Source of the DNA: Acidobacteriota bacterium
GTDB taxonomy: Bacteria > Acidobacteriota > Terriglobia > Acidiferrales > UBA7541
Length of the DNA stretch: 64,000 bases
Direction of reading: 5' to 3'
NCBI GenBank assembly: GCA_003224085.1
Contig: QHYK01000038.1
Span: 1 to 64,000 of the forward strand
The first letter of the stretch is position 1. The number at the start of each line of letters is the position of its first letter. This document shows positions 23,588 through 29,393 of this stretch, piece after piece. Made by a program: the position numbers and the translations under genes. Below the pieces are notes generated by a model. The model was not told the DNA's origin and searched no databases. It saw only the letters and a program-made list of their open reading frames with translations.

Positions 23588-24274
23588 TTAAGCTTCAGGC
23601 GCAGACCCTATTACAACGAGCGCCACGGTCGTTGGCGAGCCAGCCAGCGGCAACTGAAATTCCACCAGCCACTGGTCGCCTTCATCCAAATGGAAAACGG
23701 AAGGGAGTGACTTCGGATGATCCTCGGGCGGGCCGAGACTCCACACCGAAGGATGATTCGAACCGGTAGCCTTACGGCTCAGAGCCAGGGTTTGATCGAT
23801 CGTGACCGTAGCGGCATCCTGATCGTCGGTTGCAGGAGAGGCGAGCAAAAAATCACGCTGCGGAGCCACGCCCATGTGATTCCCGTTATCCGGCAAGAGC
23901 GCGTACCGAAGCGTGTAGACGCCAGGCTTGATCAGCTGTTTGCGATAATCCTTCACGGCGGTGGGCAGACGAATCGCGCTCACAAGCGTTCCCTGAGCCA
24001 GCTGCGGATAGACCACACCGAGCGTCTGTGGAGCATTTGCTTTCCCGGGAACGGCTTTGCCAAGCCAGATGTCACACAGGGGGCCGCTGGGCCCGGTGAC
24101 GCGAATGCCAGTGGAGGACAGAGCGGTTCGAACGGCTGCGGCTAACTCGTTGGGAGGCGCTTCGTTGAGGGGTTCGGCTTTGTAGCTTTGCGCGAAGGCA
24201 CTCCCTGCGGCCAAAAGCAGGGAGTGCGACAGTAAGAAAGCATACAACCACTGCCGTGTCCGAAACGCTTCCAT
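23588..24274 (-). CDS. Secreted hypothetical protein
   Basis: 228 residues from ATG 24274, which gives a good signal peptide (QWLYAFLLSHSLLLAAGSAFAQ). The mature part is beta-rich with PSGPLCDIWLGKAVPG, IKPGVYTLRYALLPDNGNHMGVAPQRDFLLASPA, and SLGPPEDHPKSLPSVFHLDEGDQW; this domain is common near secreted enzymes in acidobacteria but has no function I can name. The frame extends upstream to 24391 without support. It converges on the cupin gene with a 20-nt gap that includes a T-run. Confidence 0.72.
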   Translation of the reverse strand: MEAFRTRQWLYAFLLSHSLLLAAGSAFAQSYKAEPLNEAPPNELAAAVRTALSSTGIRVTGPSGPLCDIWLGKAVPGKANAPQTLGVVYPQLAQGTLVSAIRLPTAVKDYRKQLIKPGVYTLRYALLPDNGNHMGVAPQRDFLLASPATDDQDAATVTIDQTLALSRKATGSNHPSVWSLGPPEDHPKSLPSVFHLDEGDQWLVEFQLPLAGSPTTVALVVIGSAPEA

Positions 24275-24478
24275 TGGCGAGCACCTCAGAAGGGAAGAAT
24301 TGGATTTAGCGCGCGTCTTTGGCCACGTCCGTGACAGCTTCGCTCTTTTTGACCACGAGCCCGCCCGAGGCACCGCCTCTAAAAGACGCAAATTATACCG
24401 ACCCCTGGGGCGAGCTTCTCGCTACACAACCGTTCTTGCAATGTTCCCGATGCAGACCGCTTCCAGGTTTCCCTGGGT

Positions 24479-25168
24479 TCAGAAGGCAAACGTTCCCACA
24501 AAAGCGCTCCGGCGGTTGGACTCGTTCCACGTGCTGCCGAGATGATTGCCGCTGTAGGACGAGCGGCTGGCAACGGCAGGCATCGCATGGGTCAAATGCG
24601 AAACCAGCGGCTCGTAGTAGACGTCTTCGTTGTGGCAAATCTCGTCGGTGTCCATGATGGCGCGCGTATTGATTTGCGCAAGGTCGCCGACTTGGAGTGA
24701 CGCGACTCCGTGCTTGCTCCCGTCCACCGTGAACCGAATGGGCAAAGCTTCGGTGGCAACGACAGTGCTCAGAAGTTTGCCTGCCTGCGCTTGGGCAAAG
24801 CTAACGAGCGCTTCACGCTGCGCAGCGCTGGCGCGCTGGTCAACGATCAGTACGGCTTTGGCGGGCAGAGGATTGCTAAAGGCGTCGCCGAGGGTTGCGT
24901 TGGCGCGCACCACCGCGGCGACACTCAATCCATCGAGGGGAACATTTGCCCAGTTGCCCTTATCCACGTGCCACGCGAGGACCGCTTCCTGACCAGTTAA
25001 ATTGACTTCGGAATTGGCGAAGCAAGGACCGGTGTAAACATCCGCGGTCCGCGACTCGATGTATTCGCCCGACACATGCCCGGCCGGCTGGCCCGCCCGC
25101 GTACAAGTGGGCAGAGCAAACAAAGCCCCTGCCAGAAGTAAGGACGATAGACTGCCCTTCGATATCAT
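24479..25168 (-). CDS. DUF1326-like secreted protein
   Basis: 229 residues from ATG 25168 with GGGAGG upstream. Signal peptide LSSLLLAGALFALPTCTRAG. The mature start GHVSGEYIESRTADVYTGPCFANSEVNLTGQEAVLAWHVDKG and later GDAFSNPLPAKAVLIVDQRAS match the DUF1326 pattern (a CFANSE motif followed by ALAW-type strand). Molecular role unknown. It is upstream of the preceding secreted hypothetical on the same strand, 204 nt apart. Confidence 0.75.
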   Translation of the reverse strand: MISKGSLSSLLLAGALFALPTCTRAGQPAGHVSGEYIESRTADVYTGPCFANSEVNLTGQEAVLAWHVDKGNWANVPLDGLSVAAVVRANATLGDAFSNPLPAKAVLIVDQRASAAQREALVSFAQAQAGKLLSTVVATEALPIRFTVDGSKHGVASLQVGDLAQINTRAIMDTDEICHNEDVYYEPLVSHLTHAMPAVASRSSYSGNHLGSTWNESNRRSAFVGTFAF

Positions 25169-25298
25169 TTTCACTACCTCCCTTGATTTCCCTAAAGCCT
25201 GTCTCAACTTCTATTCTCTCATTCCAACGTTTTGCGTTCCAATTCAAATTTTCTATTTTACGACTCACCGGTTCGCGGAGGTGAACCGGCGAGAAACT

Positions 25299-25547
25299 CT
25301 AAGTCGTTTCGCAACACGAACGGCCCGGGCGGCACTTCTCCGTATTGGCAAAGTGCCCGTCCGGTCCCACTAGTGATTGCGTTTGCGCGCACCAGAAAGG
25401 ACCAGTGGGCATTGCAGCGGCCTTCTCTTCCGCCGAAATAATGTCCAGGGTGTTGGCCGGAGCGTCTCCGCCTTCGTAAAACATCTTCTTCTCACGCAGA
25501 CGATGGCACACCGTAGCGTTCTGCACGAGTTCAGTCAGGGTCGGCAT
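25299..25547 (-). CDS. Small cysteine-containing protein closing the molybdenum hydroxylase operon
   Basis: 82 residues, start ATG 25547, only 2 nt after the stop of the FAD-subunit gene, so translation is probably coupled. Visible features: a helical N-terminus (TLTELVQNATVCHRLREK), LDIISAEEKAAAMPTGPFWCAQTQ, VGPDGHFANTEKCRPGRSCCETT; five cysteines, three in the last dozen residues. No known family comes to mind. It could be a maturation or electron-transfer accessory for the enzyme. The tight spacing and non-random composition argue it is real. Confidence 0.62.
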   Translation of the reverse strand: MPTLTELVQNATVCHRLREKKMFYEGGDAPANTLDIISAEEKAAAMPTGPFWCAQTQSLVGPDGHFANTEKCRPGRSCCETT

Positions 25548-25549
25548 GG

Positions 25550-26539
25550 CTACGCTTCTCCTTTCGCGGCGGCAAGCAAGGCGCGTTTGACGGCCACTTT
25601 CGCGAGCTTCACCTTGTAACCATTCTGGCTGAGGGGTTTTGCGCGGCTGAGAGCCGCCTCGGCCGCGCTGGCGGCTACGCTCTCGTTTATAGATTTGCCA
25701 GTCAGCTCCTTGTCCGCTTCCTTAGCTTGCCAAGGAATCGGTGCGACGTGACCGAGCACGATCCTGCCTTCCGTGACTTTGCCGCCTTCCAGTTTGACCG
25801 TGACGGCGGCAGCGGCGAGTGGCCAGTCGAGCGCTGTTTTGTGACGCACTTCGTACGTGGCGCTGCGAAGACCGCGAGAAGAAGCGGGGATCACGATGCT
25901 CGCGAGCATCTCGTTGGGCCGGAGGACGTTCTCCCGTTCGCTATCGGATTTAGGGATGATAAAAAAGTCTGGGGCGCTGACTTCGCGCTGACCTTTAGGG
26001 CCGGCCAGTTGCAGCTTTGCACCAAGTGCGATCAATGCCGGCGCAAGGCTCGAGGGATTCACGAAATACGCCGGGCCGTTGTTGCCGAGTATGGCGTGGT
26101 AGCGATTCTCACCTTCCGGCACGAGCGATTTCCCGTTTTCATCTTTGGCCAGGAGCCCGTAGCCATTGCGGAAATACCAGCAGCGCGGGCGCTGGCAAAG
26201 ATCGCCGCCAACGGTGCCCATGGCGCGAATCTGCGCACTGGTAATGCCTTGAGCCGCGTGCGCAAGAGCAGGGAACTCAGATCGAATGGTCTTGTCTTCG
26301 AGCAGTTCGTCCATGGTAACGAGCGCGCCGATGGTCACGCCTTCCGCGTTCGAATGAATGCCATTCAAGCCTTCCACATTCTTGATATCCACGACGCGCT
26401 TCGGCGTGACGACGTACTCTTTCATCAGGCTGATTAAATCGGTGCCGCCCGCCAGCACAGCCGCATCGTCCCAGCTGGAGCCAAGCAGGCTGATCGCTTC
26501 CTGTCGAGTGCTCGCATGAGCGTATTCAAAACGTTCCAT
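25550..26539 (-). CDS. Xanthine dehydrogenase-family FAD subunit with extra Fe-S motif (PaoB/YagS-like)
   Basis: 329 residues. FAD-binding motifs VLAGGTDLISLMK (about 28-40) and GTVGGDLCQRPRCWYFRNG (about 109-126); C115 and C120 belong to the insertion that in PaoB/YagS and 4-hydroxybenzoyl-CoA reductase-like subunits carries a 4Fe-4S cluster. A CO-dehydrogenase flavoprotein C-terminal domain follows. It passes electrons from the Mo and 2Fe-2S subunits to an acceptor. Its start codon overlaps the stop of the large-subunit gene (TAATG). No signal peptide, so any export must be as a complex with the Tat-tagged small subunit. Confidence 0.92.
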   Translation of the reverse strand: MERFEYAHASTRQEAISLLGSSWDDAAVLAGGTDLISLMKEYVVTPKRVVDIKNVEGLNGIHSNAEGVTIGALVTMDELLEDKTIRSEFPALAHAAQGITSAQIRAMGTVGGDLCQRPRCWYFRNGYGLLAKDENGKSLVPEGENRYHAILGNNGPAYFVNPSSLAPALIALGAKLQLAGPKGQREVSAPDFFIIPKSDSERENVLRPNEMLASIVIPASSRGLRSATYEVRHKTALDWPLAAAAVTVKLEGGKVTEGRIVLGHVAPIPWQAKEADKELTGKSINESVAASAAEAALSRAKPLSQNGYKVKLAKVAVKRALLAAAKGEA

Positions 26540-28680
26540 TACGCCACCGCTCCTTTCGTCTCCAAAGCTGCGAACACTTTGTCAGGCGTGAGCGGAAGCG
26601 TGGGAACGCGCACGCCAATGGCGTTGGCCACGGCGTTCGAAATGGCGGCACCCGGCGAAATCACCGGCGGCTCACCAAGCCCGATCACCCCGCGCTCGTC
26701 GTAGCCCGGGCCGGTCATCATGTGCACGACAATGTCGCCAAAGTCGCCGATGCCTGCGAGTTTGTAGAATTCGAGGTCGGCGTTCAGGCAGCGGCCAGTC
26801 TGCTCGTCCATGATTTTTTCTTCGAAGAGCGAGTAGGTGATGCCCATAATGCAGGCGCCGTACACCTGGCTCTCGGCCGTCTTCAGGTCAATGATGAGGC
26901 CGCAATCCTGCACGGCGACCAGTTTGTCCACGTGAACGATGCCAGTTTCCGTATCCACGCTGACTTCCGCCATCTGCGCGCCGCCGACCCCGCTCGAAAG
27001 TAGATCGTCATTGCCGCGCTGCCGCTGGCCTGTGCCGGTGATGGGCGTTGTGCCGAGCTTCGCACACGCTTGCTTCCAGAAAATGGCTTTGCTCGGATTG
27101 CCTTTGACGCGAATCTCACCGTCGACGGCTTCGAGGTCATCGGGCTTGGCGTCGAGGGAAGGAGCGACTTTTTCAAGCAGCTGATTAAGAGCAGCCGTTG
27201 CCGCGCGGCGAGTAGAGGAACTGACACCGCCAACCGTCGTGGAACCGCCAGAGGCTCCGTCCGCAGGATATTTCGAATCGCCGATATTCACTTTAACGGC
27301 TTCGAGCGGCAATCCCATGGTTTCCGCGGTGATGATGCCGATTACGGTGCGCGTGCCGGTGCCTAAATCCTGCGAGCCAAGCGATACCGACACGGAACCA
27401 TCGGGCTGAATGACGCAGTTGCAATTGCTGGGATGGCCTGCGCCACCCCAGGTGTGCATGGAAACGCCGAGCCCTTTTTTGATTGGCCCGGATGTTTTAT
27501 CGCCTCGCGGATGCCACTTGCTCTTCCAATCCATCAGTTGCGAGGCCTTTTCCAGTTCGGCCGAATACGTTTTGGCGAGCTGCCCGGTCATCTGGATGTT
27601 TTTCTGCAGCAGGTCAACCGGGTCCATGCCCAGCTTCGCCGCCAAGTCGTCGAGCGCTGACATCGTAATCACGCACATCTGGGGGTGATTCGGAGCGCGC
27701 CACGCGCGAGCCGGCCCAATATTGGTCAGCACCGCCGTATGCTTGACGCGGCGGTCGGGAATGCGAACGACATACGGCAAATTGGGCGCCCCGCCTTGTG
27801 CATCGGGACCTCCCGTGCCCCAGGATTCCGACTGCCACCCAACCAGCGTCCCGTCCTTCTTCGCGCCTACTTTGACTTTTGCATACATCGAGGGGCGCTC
27901 GCCGGCGGCCATCAATTCCTGGTCGCGCTCGAGCATCATCTTTATGGGACGCCCCGCTTTCTTGGCGAGCCGCGCGCAGGCGAGTCCCCAGCTGTCGGCG
28001 CCGAATTTGCTTCCGAACCCGCCGCCCATCACCGGTGTGAGCACTCGCACTTTGTCGGCGGAGCTGACGATATTCGCTTTAGCGATTTCACCTGGAATGC
28101 CGCTAACGTTTTGCGTGGAAGCGTACAACGTAAGGTCGTCGCCGTCCCATTCCGCTACTTGTCCATGGGCCTCGAGGCAGCAATGCGTGATGACGGAAGC
28201 GCCGTACTCGCCTTCGCTGATCACTTCGGCTTGTTGCAAGGCTTGATCGGGATTCCCGTCGGTCTGCTCAGCGAGTTGCTTGGTGTGTTCGCCGGCCTTT
28301 GAAGGGGCGACGTCAGAGACGAGATGAGGAAGTTTTTCGTAGCGAACCTGAATCCGGCGGGCCGCGTCGCGCGCTTGCTCTTCGGTTTCTGCGGCAACGG
28401 CCGCGACTTCATGCCCAACCCAGAATACTTCTTTGCCGGGCTCGGTCATGATTTCAACGGCTTTCACGCCCGGCATTTTTTCGGCGGCGCTGGTGTCGAT
28501 GCTCACCACTTTGGCATGCGCGTACGGCGAAAAAACCATTTTGCCGTGCAGCATGTTCGGGCGATTTACGTCGTAGCTGTACTTGATGCGGCCCGCAGAC
28601 TTCCAGGGACCGTCAAGTCGCGAAATGCGCCTGCCAATCAAGCTGCATTTGTCGGTGGGAGGCCAGTGATAATCAGCCAT
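26539..28680 (-). CDS. Xanthine dehydrogenase-family molybdopterin-binding large subunit (PaoC/YagR-like)
   Basis: 713 residues from ATG 28680, which overlaps the stop of the 2Fe-2S gene; a longer frame up to 28863 overlaps that gene and is rejected. Motifs: RLDGPWKSAGRIKYSYDV at the start, VMGGGFGSKFG for the cofactor, QDLGTGTRTVIG, and the active-site glutamate in VIGLGEPPVISPGAAISNA near the end. It oxidises an aldehyde or heterocycle at a Mo centre, using water as the oxygen source. The arrangement small-large-FAD here matches aldehyde oxidoreductase PaoABC by subunit type, though in a different gene order. Substrate unknown. Confidence 0.93.
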   Translation of the reverse strand: MADYHWPPTDKCSLIGRRISRLDGPWKSAGRIKYSYDVNRPNMLHGKMVFSPYAHAKVVSIDTSAAEKMPGVKAVEIMTEPGKEVFWVGHEVAAVAAETEEQARDAARRIQVRYEKLPHLVSDVAPSKAGEHTKQLAEQTDGNPDQALQQAEVISEGEYGASVITHCCLEAHGQVAEWDGDDLTLYASTQNVSGIPGEIAKANIVSSADKVRVLTPVMGGGFGSKFGADSWGLACARLAKKAGRPIKMMLERDQELMAAGERPSMYAKVKVGAKKDGTLVGWQSESWGTGGPDAQGGAPNLPYVVRIPDRRVKHTAVLTNIGPARAWRAPNHPQMCVITMSALDDLAAKLGMDPVDLLQKNIQMTGQLAKTYSAELEKASQLMDWKSKWHPRGDKTSGPIKKGLGVSMHTWGGAGHPSNCNCVIQPDGSVSVSLGSQDLGTGTRTVIGIITAETMGLPLEAVKVNIGDSKYPADGASGGSTTVGGVSSSTRRAATAALNQLLEKVAPSLDAKPDDLEAVDGEIRVKGNPSKAIFWKQACAKLGTTPITGTGQRQRGNDDLLSSGVGGAQMAEVSVDTETGIVHVDKLVAVQDCGLIIDLKTAESQVYGACIMGITYSLFEEKIMDEQTGRCLNADLEFYKLAGIGDFGDIVVHMMTGPGYDERGVIGLGEPPVISPGAAISNAVANAIGVRVPTLPLTPDKVFAALETKGAVA

Positions 28681-29393
28681 CAGGCGTGCCCTCCTTTCAT
28701 GGACATTGCCGCTTGGACAACGGCGTTTCGAACGCCCACATAGGTTCCGCAACGGCATAGATTGCCCCCGAGCGCTTGCTTCATCTCTTCGAGGGTTGGA
28801 TTGTGATGGGAATCGAGGTAAGCCTTGCAGGACATGACAAAACCGGGGGTGCAGAAGCCGCATTGTTGCGCATCGTTTTCCACAAACGATGCAGAAACGG
28901 CGTGTAATTGCCCTTCGGGAGCAAGGCCTTCGATTGTCCGGATATCTGCGCCAGGCTTTCCGCCGCGGTCTGCAACCTCAATCGCCAGGACGCCACAAGC
29001 GTACGTGGGTTTGCCGTTGACGATGATCGTGCATGCGCCGCAGGTGCCGCGGTCGCAAACTTTCTTTGCGCCAGTGAGGTCAAGATGATTCCGAAGAGCA
29101 TCGAGCAGGGTTACGCGAGGCTCAATAGTCAGCTTCTTCGCTTCGCCGTTGACGCGCAGAGTCATTGTCGCCGGGCCGGGGCCAATCACTTTGGCGGAGC
29201 CGACGACCTCGGGCTCTGGCACAGTGGTTGTCGCGGCCGACGCGAGCTGGTGGCCGGCAAGAACTTGCGCGGTGGCGGCAACGCCGGTACCACCGACTAG
29301 CTTGACGAATTCACGTCTTCGAAGAGCCCGCTTTTTGTCGAGTTCTTCCTTGGACTTGGATTCGGGGTCTTTGGGATCTTCTTTTTTGGCCAT
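28680..29393 (-). CDS. Xanthine dehydrogenase-family 2Fe-2S subunit with Tat signal (PaoA/YagT-like)
   Basis: 237 residues. After a charged start comes RRREFVKLVGGTGVAATAQVLAG, a twin-arginine signal. The plant-type 2Fe-2S ligands are C113, C118, C121 and C133; the second cluster ligands are C178, C181, C213 and C215 (QQCGFCTPG and NLCRCGTY). It is the first gene of the operon, with GGAGG 6 nt before the ATG. As in PaoABC, the Tat signal on this subunit should carry the assembled enzyme to the periplasm. Confidence 0.94.
   Translation of the reverse strand: MAKKEDPKDPESKSKEELDKKRALRRREFVKLVGGTGVAATAQVLAGHQLASAATTTVPEPEVVGSAKVIGPGPATMTLRVNGEAKKLTIEPRVTLLDALRNHLDLTGAKKVCDRGTCGACTIIVNGKPTYACGVLAIEVADRGGKPGADIRTIEGLAPEGQLHAVSASFVENDAQQCGFCTPGFVMSCKAYLDSHHNPTLEEMKQALGGNLCRCGTYVGVRNAVVQAAMSMKGGHA

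Follow-up and report, generated by a model that had tools for sequence, protein, structure and literature searches.

A conserved small four-cysteine gene ending the operon of a PaoABC-like molybdenum hydroxylase in Acidobacteriota

A 64,000-nucleotide stretch of an Acidobacteriota genome (the window) carries an operon for a molybdenum hydroxylase of a known kind, and the operon ends in a fourth gene that is new and unnamed in the family libraries searched. This small open reading frame (ORF) is a real gene. In our genome sample, it accompanies almost all close relatives of the window enzyme and was not encountered apart from such enzymes. On sequence comparison, we tentatively propose that its product is a fourth component, binding a metal or an Fe-S cluster, of one Tat-exported group of PaoABC-like enzymes, and that it would be carried out together with PaoABC. 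We rate a dedicated assembly factor almost as probable as a subunit.

The operon and its fourth gene

The gene order in the window is paoA-paoC-paoB-small (Table 1). Pfam matches over the cut-off were obtained for all three subunits, i.e., those for Mo, FAD, and 2x[2Fe-2S]. The start codon of the paoC-like gene is uncertain, with the longest ORF beginning at 28863. The NCBIfam equivalog scores were 341 bits for PaoC (cut-off, 1180) and 152 for PaoA (cut-off, 322), so NCBI's rule classes the window enzyme as a relative of PaoABC and not as PaoABC itself. The system shares with Escherichia coli PaoABC and PaoD a molybdenum hydroxylase of three subunits, of which PaoA bears a Tat signal, and an operon that closes with a fourth gene. 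It differs from paoABCD of E. coli in its order, which is A-C-B rather than A-B-C, and in the fourth gene, which encodes an 82-aa four-cysteine protein instead of the XdhC-type PaoD.

Table 1. Genes and sites in and behind the operon, listed in the direction of reading
Feature	Position	Strand	Basis
paoA-like 2x[2Fe-2S] subunit with Tat signal	28680..29393	-	Pfam Fer2, Fer2_2; PDB 5y6q_A, 5g5g_A
paoC-like molybdopterin subunit	26539..28722	-	Pfam MoCoBD_1, MoCoBD_2, Ald_Xan_dh_C; NCBIfam PaoC below cut-off
paoB-like FAD subunit	25550..26539	-	Pfam FAD_binding_5, CO_deh_flav_C; PDB 5y6q_B, 5g5g_B
AAAGGAG within the paoB end, probable ribosome-binding site for the small gene	25558..25564	-	Sequence read and inference
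Small four-cysteine protein gene, fourth in operon	25299..25547	-	ORF, conserved family, no family match
DUF1326 protein, apparent Sec signal (by eye), frequent next gene	24479..25171	-	PF07040
Protein without Pfam family, apparent signal sequence (by eye), behind DUF1326	23588..24280	-	No Pfam match

The small ORF runs from an ATG at 25547 to a stop ending at 25299 on the minus strand and encodes 82 aa, with cysteines at positions Cys14, Cys53, Cys72, Cys78, and Cys79. The earlier note had described 82 residues and five cysteines, three of them near the C-terminus, and a start 2 nt past the stop of the FAD-subunit gene. The ORF as read agrees with the first description, on a strand that had been left unstated, and the coordinates agree with the second: the paoB-like stop occupies 25552-25550, leaving a gap of 2 nt (25549-25548). 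The AAAGGAG lies about 10 nt 5' of the ATG. In 66 of 79 loci, the small gene started no more than 20 nt from the paoB stop (at +2 in 24 and at -4 in 12), where the script chose the start closest to that stop; with these script-called starts, protein length was 63 to 105 aa. The dN/dS of the small gene against five close homologues was 0.047 to 0.067, values that are rough because dS exceeded 1 in all five pairs.

Beginning 5 nt past the small-gene stop, an 11-bp hairpin with a loop of 8 occupies 25264-25293. Around this hairpin, which lies between the small gene and the DUF1326 gene, 159 nt of sequence showed no more RNA structure than shuffled versions did (z, -0.14).

Association with one group of pao operons

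The earlier note had tied the small protein to the molybdenum hydroxylase and had taken an absence of homologues, or homologues away from such enzymes, as what would speak against this. Homologues were found across family, order, and phylum genomes. By protein search, the small gene was present in 29 of 89 family genomes (own genome counted), and an 18-member profile detected it in 30 of 95 order genomes and 76 of 396 sampled phylum genomes. They also lie beside molybdenum hydroxylases: of the 60 phylum and order loci, 59 had paoB upstream in the same orientation, the one miss being at a contig end, and 58 had paoC and 57 had paoA. All misses (L066, L089, and L091) are at contig ends. A scan of named contigs with a single narrow pattern yielded 22 loci, of which 20 were titled Acidobacteria, Terriglobia, or Acidiferrales, one "Bacillota," and one Gemmatimonadetes. 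In the metagenome-assembled genome titled Bacillota (L039), the operon version is acidobacterial and the title is probably wrong.

The reverse test started from the enzyme. Window PaoC was searched against the same 396 phylum genomes at E 1e-90, with two candidate places scored per genome. Where PaoC was at least 45% identical to window PaoC, the small gene lay downstream on the same contig and strand in 57 of 58 places, 964 to 1728 nt past paoC, i.e., behind paoB. The lone exception (G118) has its small gene on another contig, behind a cut paoB. Below 45% identity, the small gene was found behind 17 of 54 PaoC places. Seen from the small gene, 74 of its 78 places in the phylum sample had a listed PaoC upstream. 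One further place (G219, L103) has PaoC upstream too, though unlisted, and the remaining three (G118, G309, and G389) are at contig ends. Duplicated operons each have their own small gene (G018, L030 and L125; G219, L103 and L106; G416, L087 and L088), and in G083 each small-gene copy (L014 and L031) stands behind its own pao genes, cut by contig ends. At the family level, a close PaoC (at least 53%) occurred in 29 genomes and the small gene in 29. The two sets differ by G038, whose contig ends inside the following gene, and G037, whose gene is near a contig end; in G017 and G044, the close PaoC and the small gene are on separate contigs. There is virtually no chance that the ORF is spurious or a mere neighbor by accident, as the dN/dS of about 0.05, the 57 of 58 PaoC linkage, and the cysteines kept in every distinct homologue (93 of 93) all argue against it.

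Thirty-four of the 37 PaoC places without a neighboring small gene were examined as sister loci; G295, G309, and G389, with PaoC or the small gene at a contig edge, were left out. At full sensitivity, a broad 21-member profile found the small gene in 0 of these 34 loci at E <0.1, among which L148, L161, L175, and L179 are cut or without paoB and so uninformative. The sister operons likewise have the A-C-B order. In the PaoC tree (FastTree support, 0.12) and the PaoC+PaoB tree (0.21), the 77 small-bearing sequences formed one group; they were not kept together in the PaoB-only tree. Given this poor support and the failure of the PaoB tree, the data suggest, and do no more than suggest, that the small gene was gained once. 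Past paoB, sister operons L153, L155, L158, and L159 each have an ORF of about 390-400 aa; by eye, these ORFs look alike and appear to carry a signal sequence.

In 37 of 60 loci, a DUF1326 protein was encoded no more than 2.6 kb past the small gene, and in 24 of 60 a protein of the 23588-24280 type was. Thus, these two are less tightly tied to the small gene than the pao genes are. By tblastn at E 1e-4, the 34 sister loci contained no match to either.

The genome-by-genome survey covered two phyla, whose names are inferred from record titles. In the phylum of L045 (Gemmatimonadota by record title), the small gene was present in 6 of 298 genomes, none of them shared with the family, order, and phylum samples above. 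In five of these six loci (L137 and L141-L144), xdhC followed within 2 kb behind the small gene, immediately so in four of the five; a 457-aa ORF intervenes in L142. At L045, xdhC was not seen behind the small gene. It also occurs near the operon at L095 and, on the other strand, at L108. The occurrence of xdhC in the same gene row indicates that the small protein works beside the XdhC/PaoD chaperone, not instead of it.

As described in the accessible part of PMC3909100, PaoD of E. coli is an insertion chaperone whose gene comes after the subunit genes. The small gene follows the subunit genes in the same slot and, like the genes of the XdhC/PaoD/CoxI chaperones, adjoins a molybdenum hydroxylase operon; moreover, no xdhC is among the examined genes of the window operon. 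That the small protein takes the place of the molybdenum-cofactor chaperone XdhC/PaoD is nevertheless very improbable, given xdhC behind the small gene in five of six second-phylum loci. Genomes with and without the small gene encode XdhC at another site equally often (XdhC_C over the cut-off in 24 of 29 family genomes with the small gene versus 52 of 60 without), and contig C3 of the genome from which the window comes encodes an XdhC in a 286-aa open frame, far longer than 82 aa. Unlike XdhC/PaoD/CoxI, the small protein, at less than one-third of the size, has no sequence match to these chaperones; Pfam found no XdhC_CoxI or XdhC_C domain in it or among 23 members of its family. The earlier note had expected a maturation factor or an electron acceptor at this position. 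As a stand-in for XdhC, the first of these is weakened by the coexisting xdhC, whereas an additional assembly factor and an electron carrier or extra subunit both stand.

Family searches, conserved residues, and export

The window small protein gave no match in Pfam, NCBIfam, or PHROGs, and the impression that it belongs to no known family thus held in these libraries and in the PDB. Against PDB sequences, profile A1 had no match and profile A3 had one, to a 49-aa chain at E 0.32, which was treated as chance. When 23 divergent members were compared with Pfam at E up to 10, only single-member matches appeared (Kelch_2, 0.019; DUF4912, 0.13; DUF7229, 0.16), and in NCBIfam one of the 23 matched an MJ0042-type zinc finger (E 0.0093). 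These four matches, each weak and confined to a single member, were also treated as chance. Among the 23 members there was no Fe-S match in Pfam, and no ferredoxin family fits the cysteine spacing. In plasmids, tblastn with the small protein found nothing at E 1, and all 1189 records were below 60% identity to window PaoC. AlphaFold2 with 23 sequences returned a mean pLDDT of 44, which is not a usable model and has no bearing either way. No description of such a small protein was found in the open-licence literature.

The 95 loci provided 93 distinct sequences, in which twelve alignment columns are kept in at least 87. All 93 share an invariant C14, W52, C53, G61, D63, C72, R76, and C78; next come K20 (92 of 93), P62 (90 of 93), R18 (89 of 93), and T56 (87 of 93). 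The invariant cysteines are spaced C-x(25-39)-C-x18-C-x(5-7)-C, and the fifth, C79, is frequently Tyr, Phe, or His in homologues. The four invariant cysteines include no CxxC, nor does the window protein have one elsewhere; just 3 of 95 homologues do. That four cysteines never vary in a protein that is variable elsewhere points to a metal site or to disulfides, and with a start in the cytoplasm a metal site would be the likelier of the two. In its size and four invariant cysteines, the protein presumably resembles ferredoxins and high-potential iron-sulfur proteins (HiPIP). Unlike them, it lacks a CxxC among these cysteines, matches nothing in Pfam or the PDB, and has no signal peptide of its own.

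The RRxhh motif was absent from the small protein in 95 of 95 loci, and there was no transmembrane stretch, the highest 15-residue KD mean being 1.44. Because window PaoA, with its Tat signal (RRREFVKLVGG), scores just 1.42, this hydrophobicity measure alone excludes only strongly hydrophobic signals. Of 75 readable small-bearing operons, 72 encode a PaoA with a Tat motif, which a script recognized in 69 and inspection by eye in the other 3; L068 and L071 show SRRDFLRG. The motif was lacking in L070, L082, and L125; the match in L042 is doubtful, and 4 of 79 operons were unreadable. Sister-operon PaoA had the motif in 22 of 24 readable cases (30 of 32 by an earlier script). The genome of L125 (G018:C110) has a second operon copy.

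As reported in the available text of PMC4273604, PaoB and PaoC of E. coli have no signal and are exported via PaoA. A signal-less small protein may therefore be a passenger in the same way or may stay behind, and the missing signal peptide fits a resident of the cytoplasm equally well. The protein could be a dedicated cytoplasmic assembly or quality-control factor, i.e., an aid to Fe-S or molybdenum-cofactor (Moco) loading or a proofreader before Tat export, that acts besides XdhC and is left behind on export. NapD and HypC offer a comparison for the small size of such a factor. The near one-to-one linkage to the enzyme would suit this role, as would the position between paoB and xdhC, with no other gene, in four of six second-phylum loci. 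The slot after three subunit genes is also that of PaoD in E. coli, again according to the accessible part of PMC3909100. Other observations argue against an assembly factor. Related enzymes with a Tat signal manage without the small gene (0 of 34 sister loci), which speaks against a general Tat or Moco requirement for the small protein among such enzymes. L125 bears the small gene although its PaoA has no visible Tat signal, and four invariant cysteines would be unusual in a peptide-binding chaperone.

The PaoB loop and a possible place in the electron path

In the loop of window PaoB at 115-157, Cys115 and Cys120 are kept, and Leu130, Ser138, and Ala157 stand where related PaoBs have Cys; the full set of four loop cysteines is thus absent. 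E. coli PaoB, whose RefSeq name is FAD-binding Fe-S subunit, has cysteines in the corresponding loop, which we take to be ligands of a [4Fe-4S] cluster, and window PaoB differs from it by the lack of two loop cysteines. PaoB lacked both Cys130 and Cys138 in 50 of the 79 small-bearing operons, the window's included, versus 0 of 32 operons without the small gene, counts that are not independent of ancestry. Both are still kept in the other 29 of 79 small-bearing operons, so the small protein is not a simple swap for them. Cysteines of the small protein that might directly compensate for the loss in PaoB were considered and rejected: Cys79 showed no link to the PaoB type (20 of 50 lost versus 12 of 29 kept), and Cys16 (17 of 50 lost versus 3 of 29 kept) is confounded by ancestry.

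Together, the tight linkage to the enzyme, the coexistence with XdhC, and the loss of PaoB cysteines only alongside the small gene point to a subunit in the electron path. In the proposed mechanism, the four cysteines would together ligate a single metal site, with an Fe-S cluster as the most likely occupant and zinc as the alternative, and the small protein would fold around that site onto PaoB or PaoC in the cytoplasm. It would then leave as a passenger of the PaoA Tat signal, like PaoB and PaoC in E. coli. The small protein could form, on the PaoB side, the exit of an electron path running from Mo through two [2Fe-2S] clusters and FAD to the small protein and on to a periplasmic acceptor. 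The presence of the small protein would explain why only the PaoB of this group could lose its loop cysteines. The more specific version, which we regard as somewhat unlikely in its full detail, is an Fe-S electron-transfer subunit of a new fold that, as a signal-less passenger, would replace the [4Fe-4S] outlet of PaoB in most of the group and link the enzyme to its acceptor. For E. coli PaoABC itself, the terminal physiological acceptor had not been identified as of 2014, according to the accessible part of PMC3958847.

Alternatively, the small protein could bind zinc through these cysteines and serve as a structural element or redox switch, stabilizing PaoB or PaoC without taking part in electron transfer. 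Four invariant single cysteines would suit a structural zinc site, and the MJ0042 zinc-finger match, in one of 23 members, is far too weak to count. We consider a zinc protein improbable, since no zinc fold was recognized and since it leaves unexplained the absence of PaoB loop cysteines, which is seen only beside the small gene.

An enzyme group spread across Acidobacteriota and a second phylum thus appears to need a fourth gene that has no name in the libraries searched. As a subunit, its product would open a route to understanding how electrons leave PaoABC-like enzymes; as an assembly factor, it would be a new one beyond XdhC. On either reading, the small gene is worth coexpressing when such enzymes are produced.

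Some cysteines of PaoC also differ between the groups. Cys553 occurs in the small-bearing group and in 0 of 33 sister sequences. Cys350 was present in 59 of 77 small-bearing versus 0 of 33 sister sequences, and Cys607 in 67 of 77 versus 0 of 33.
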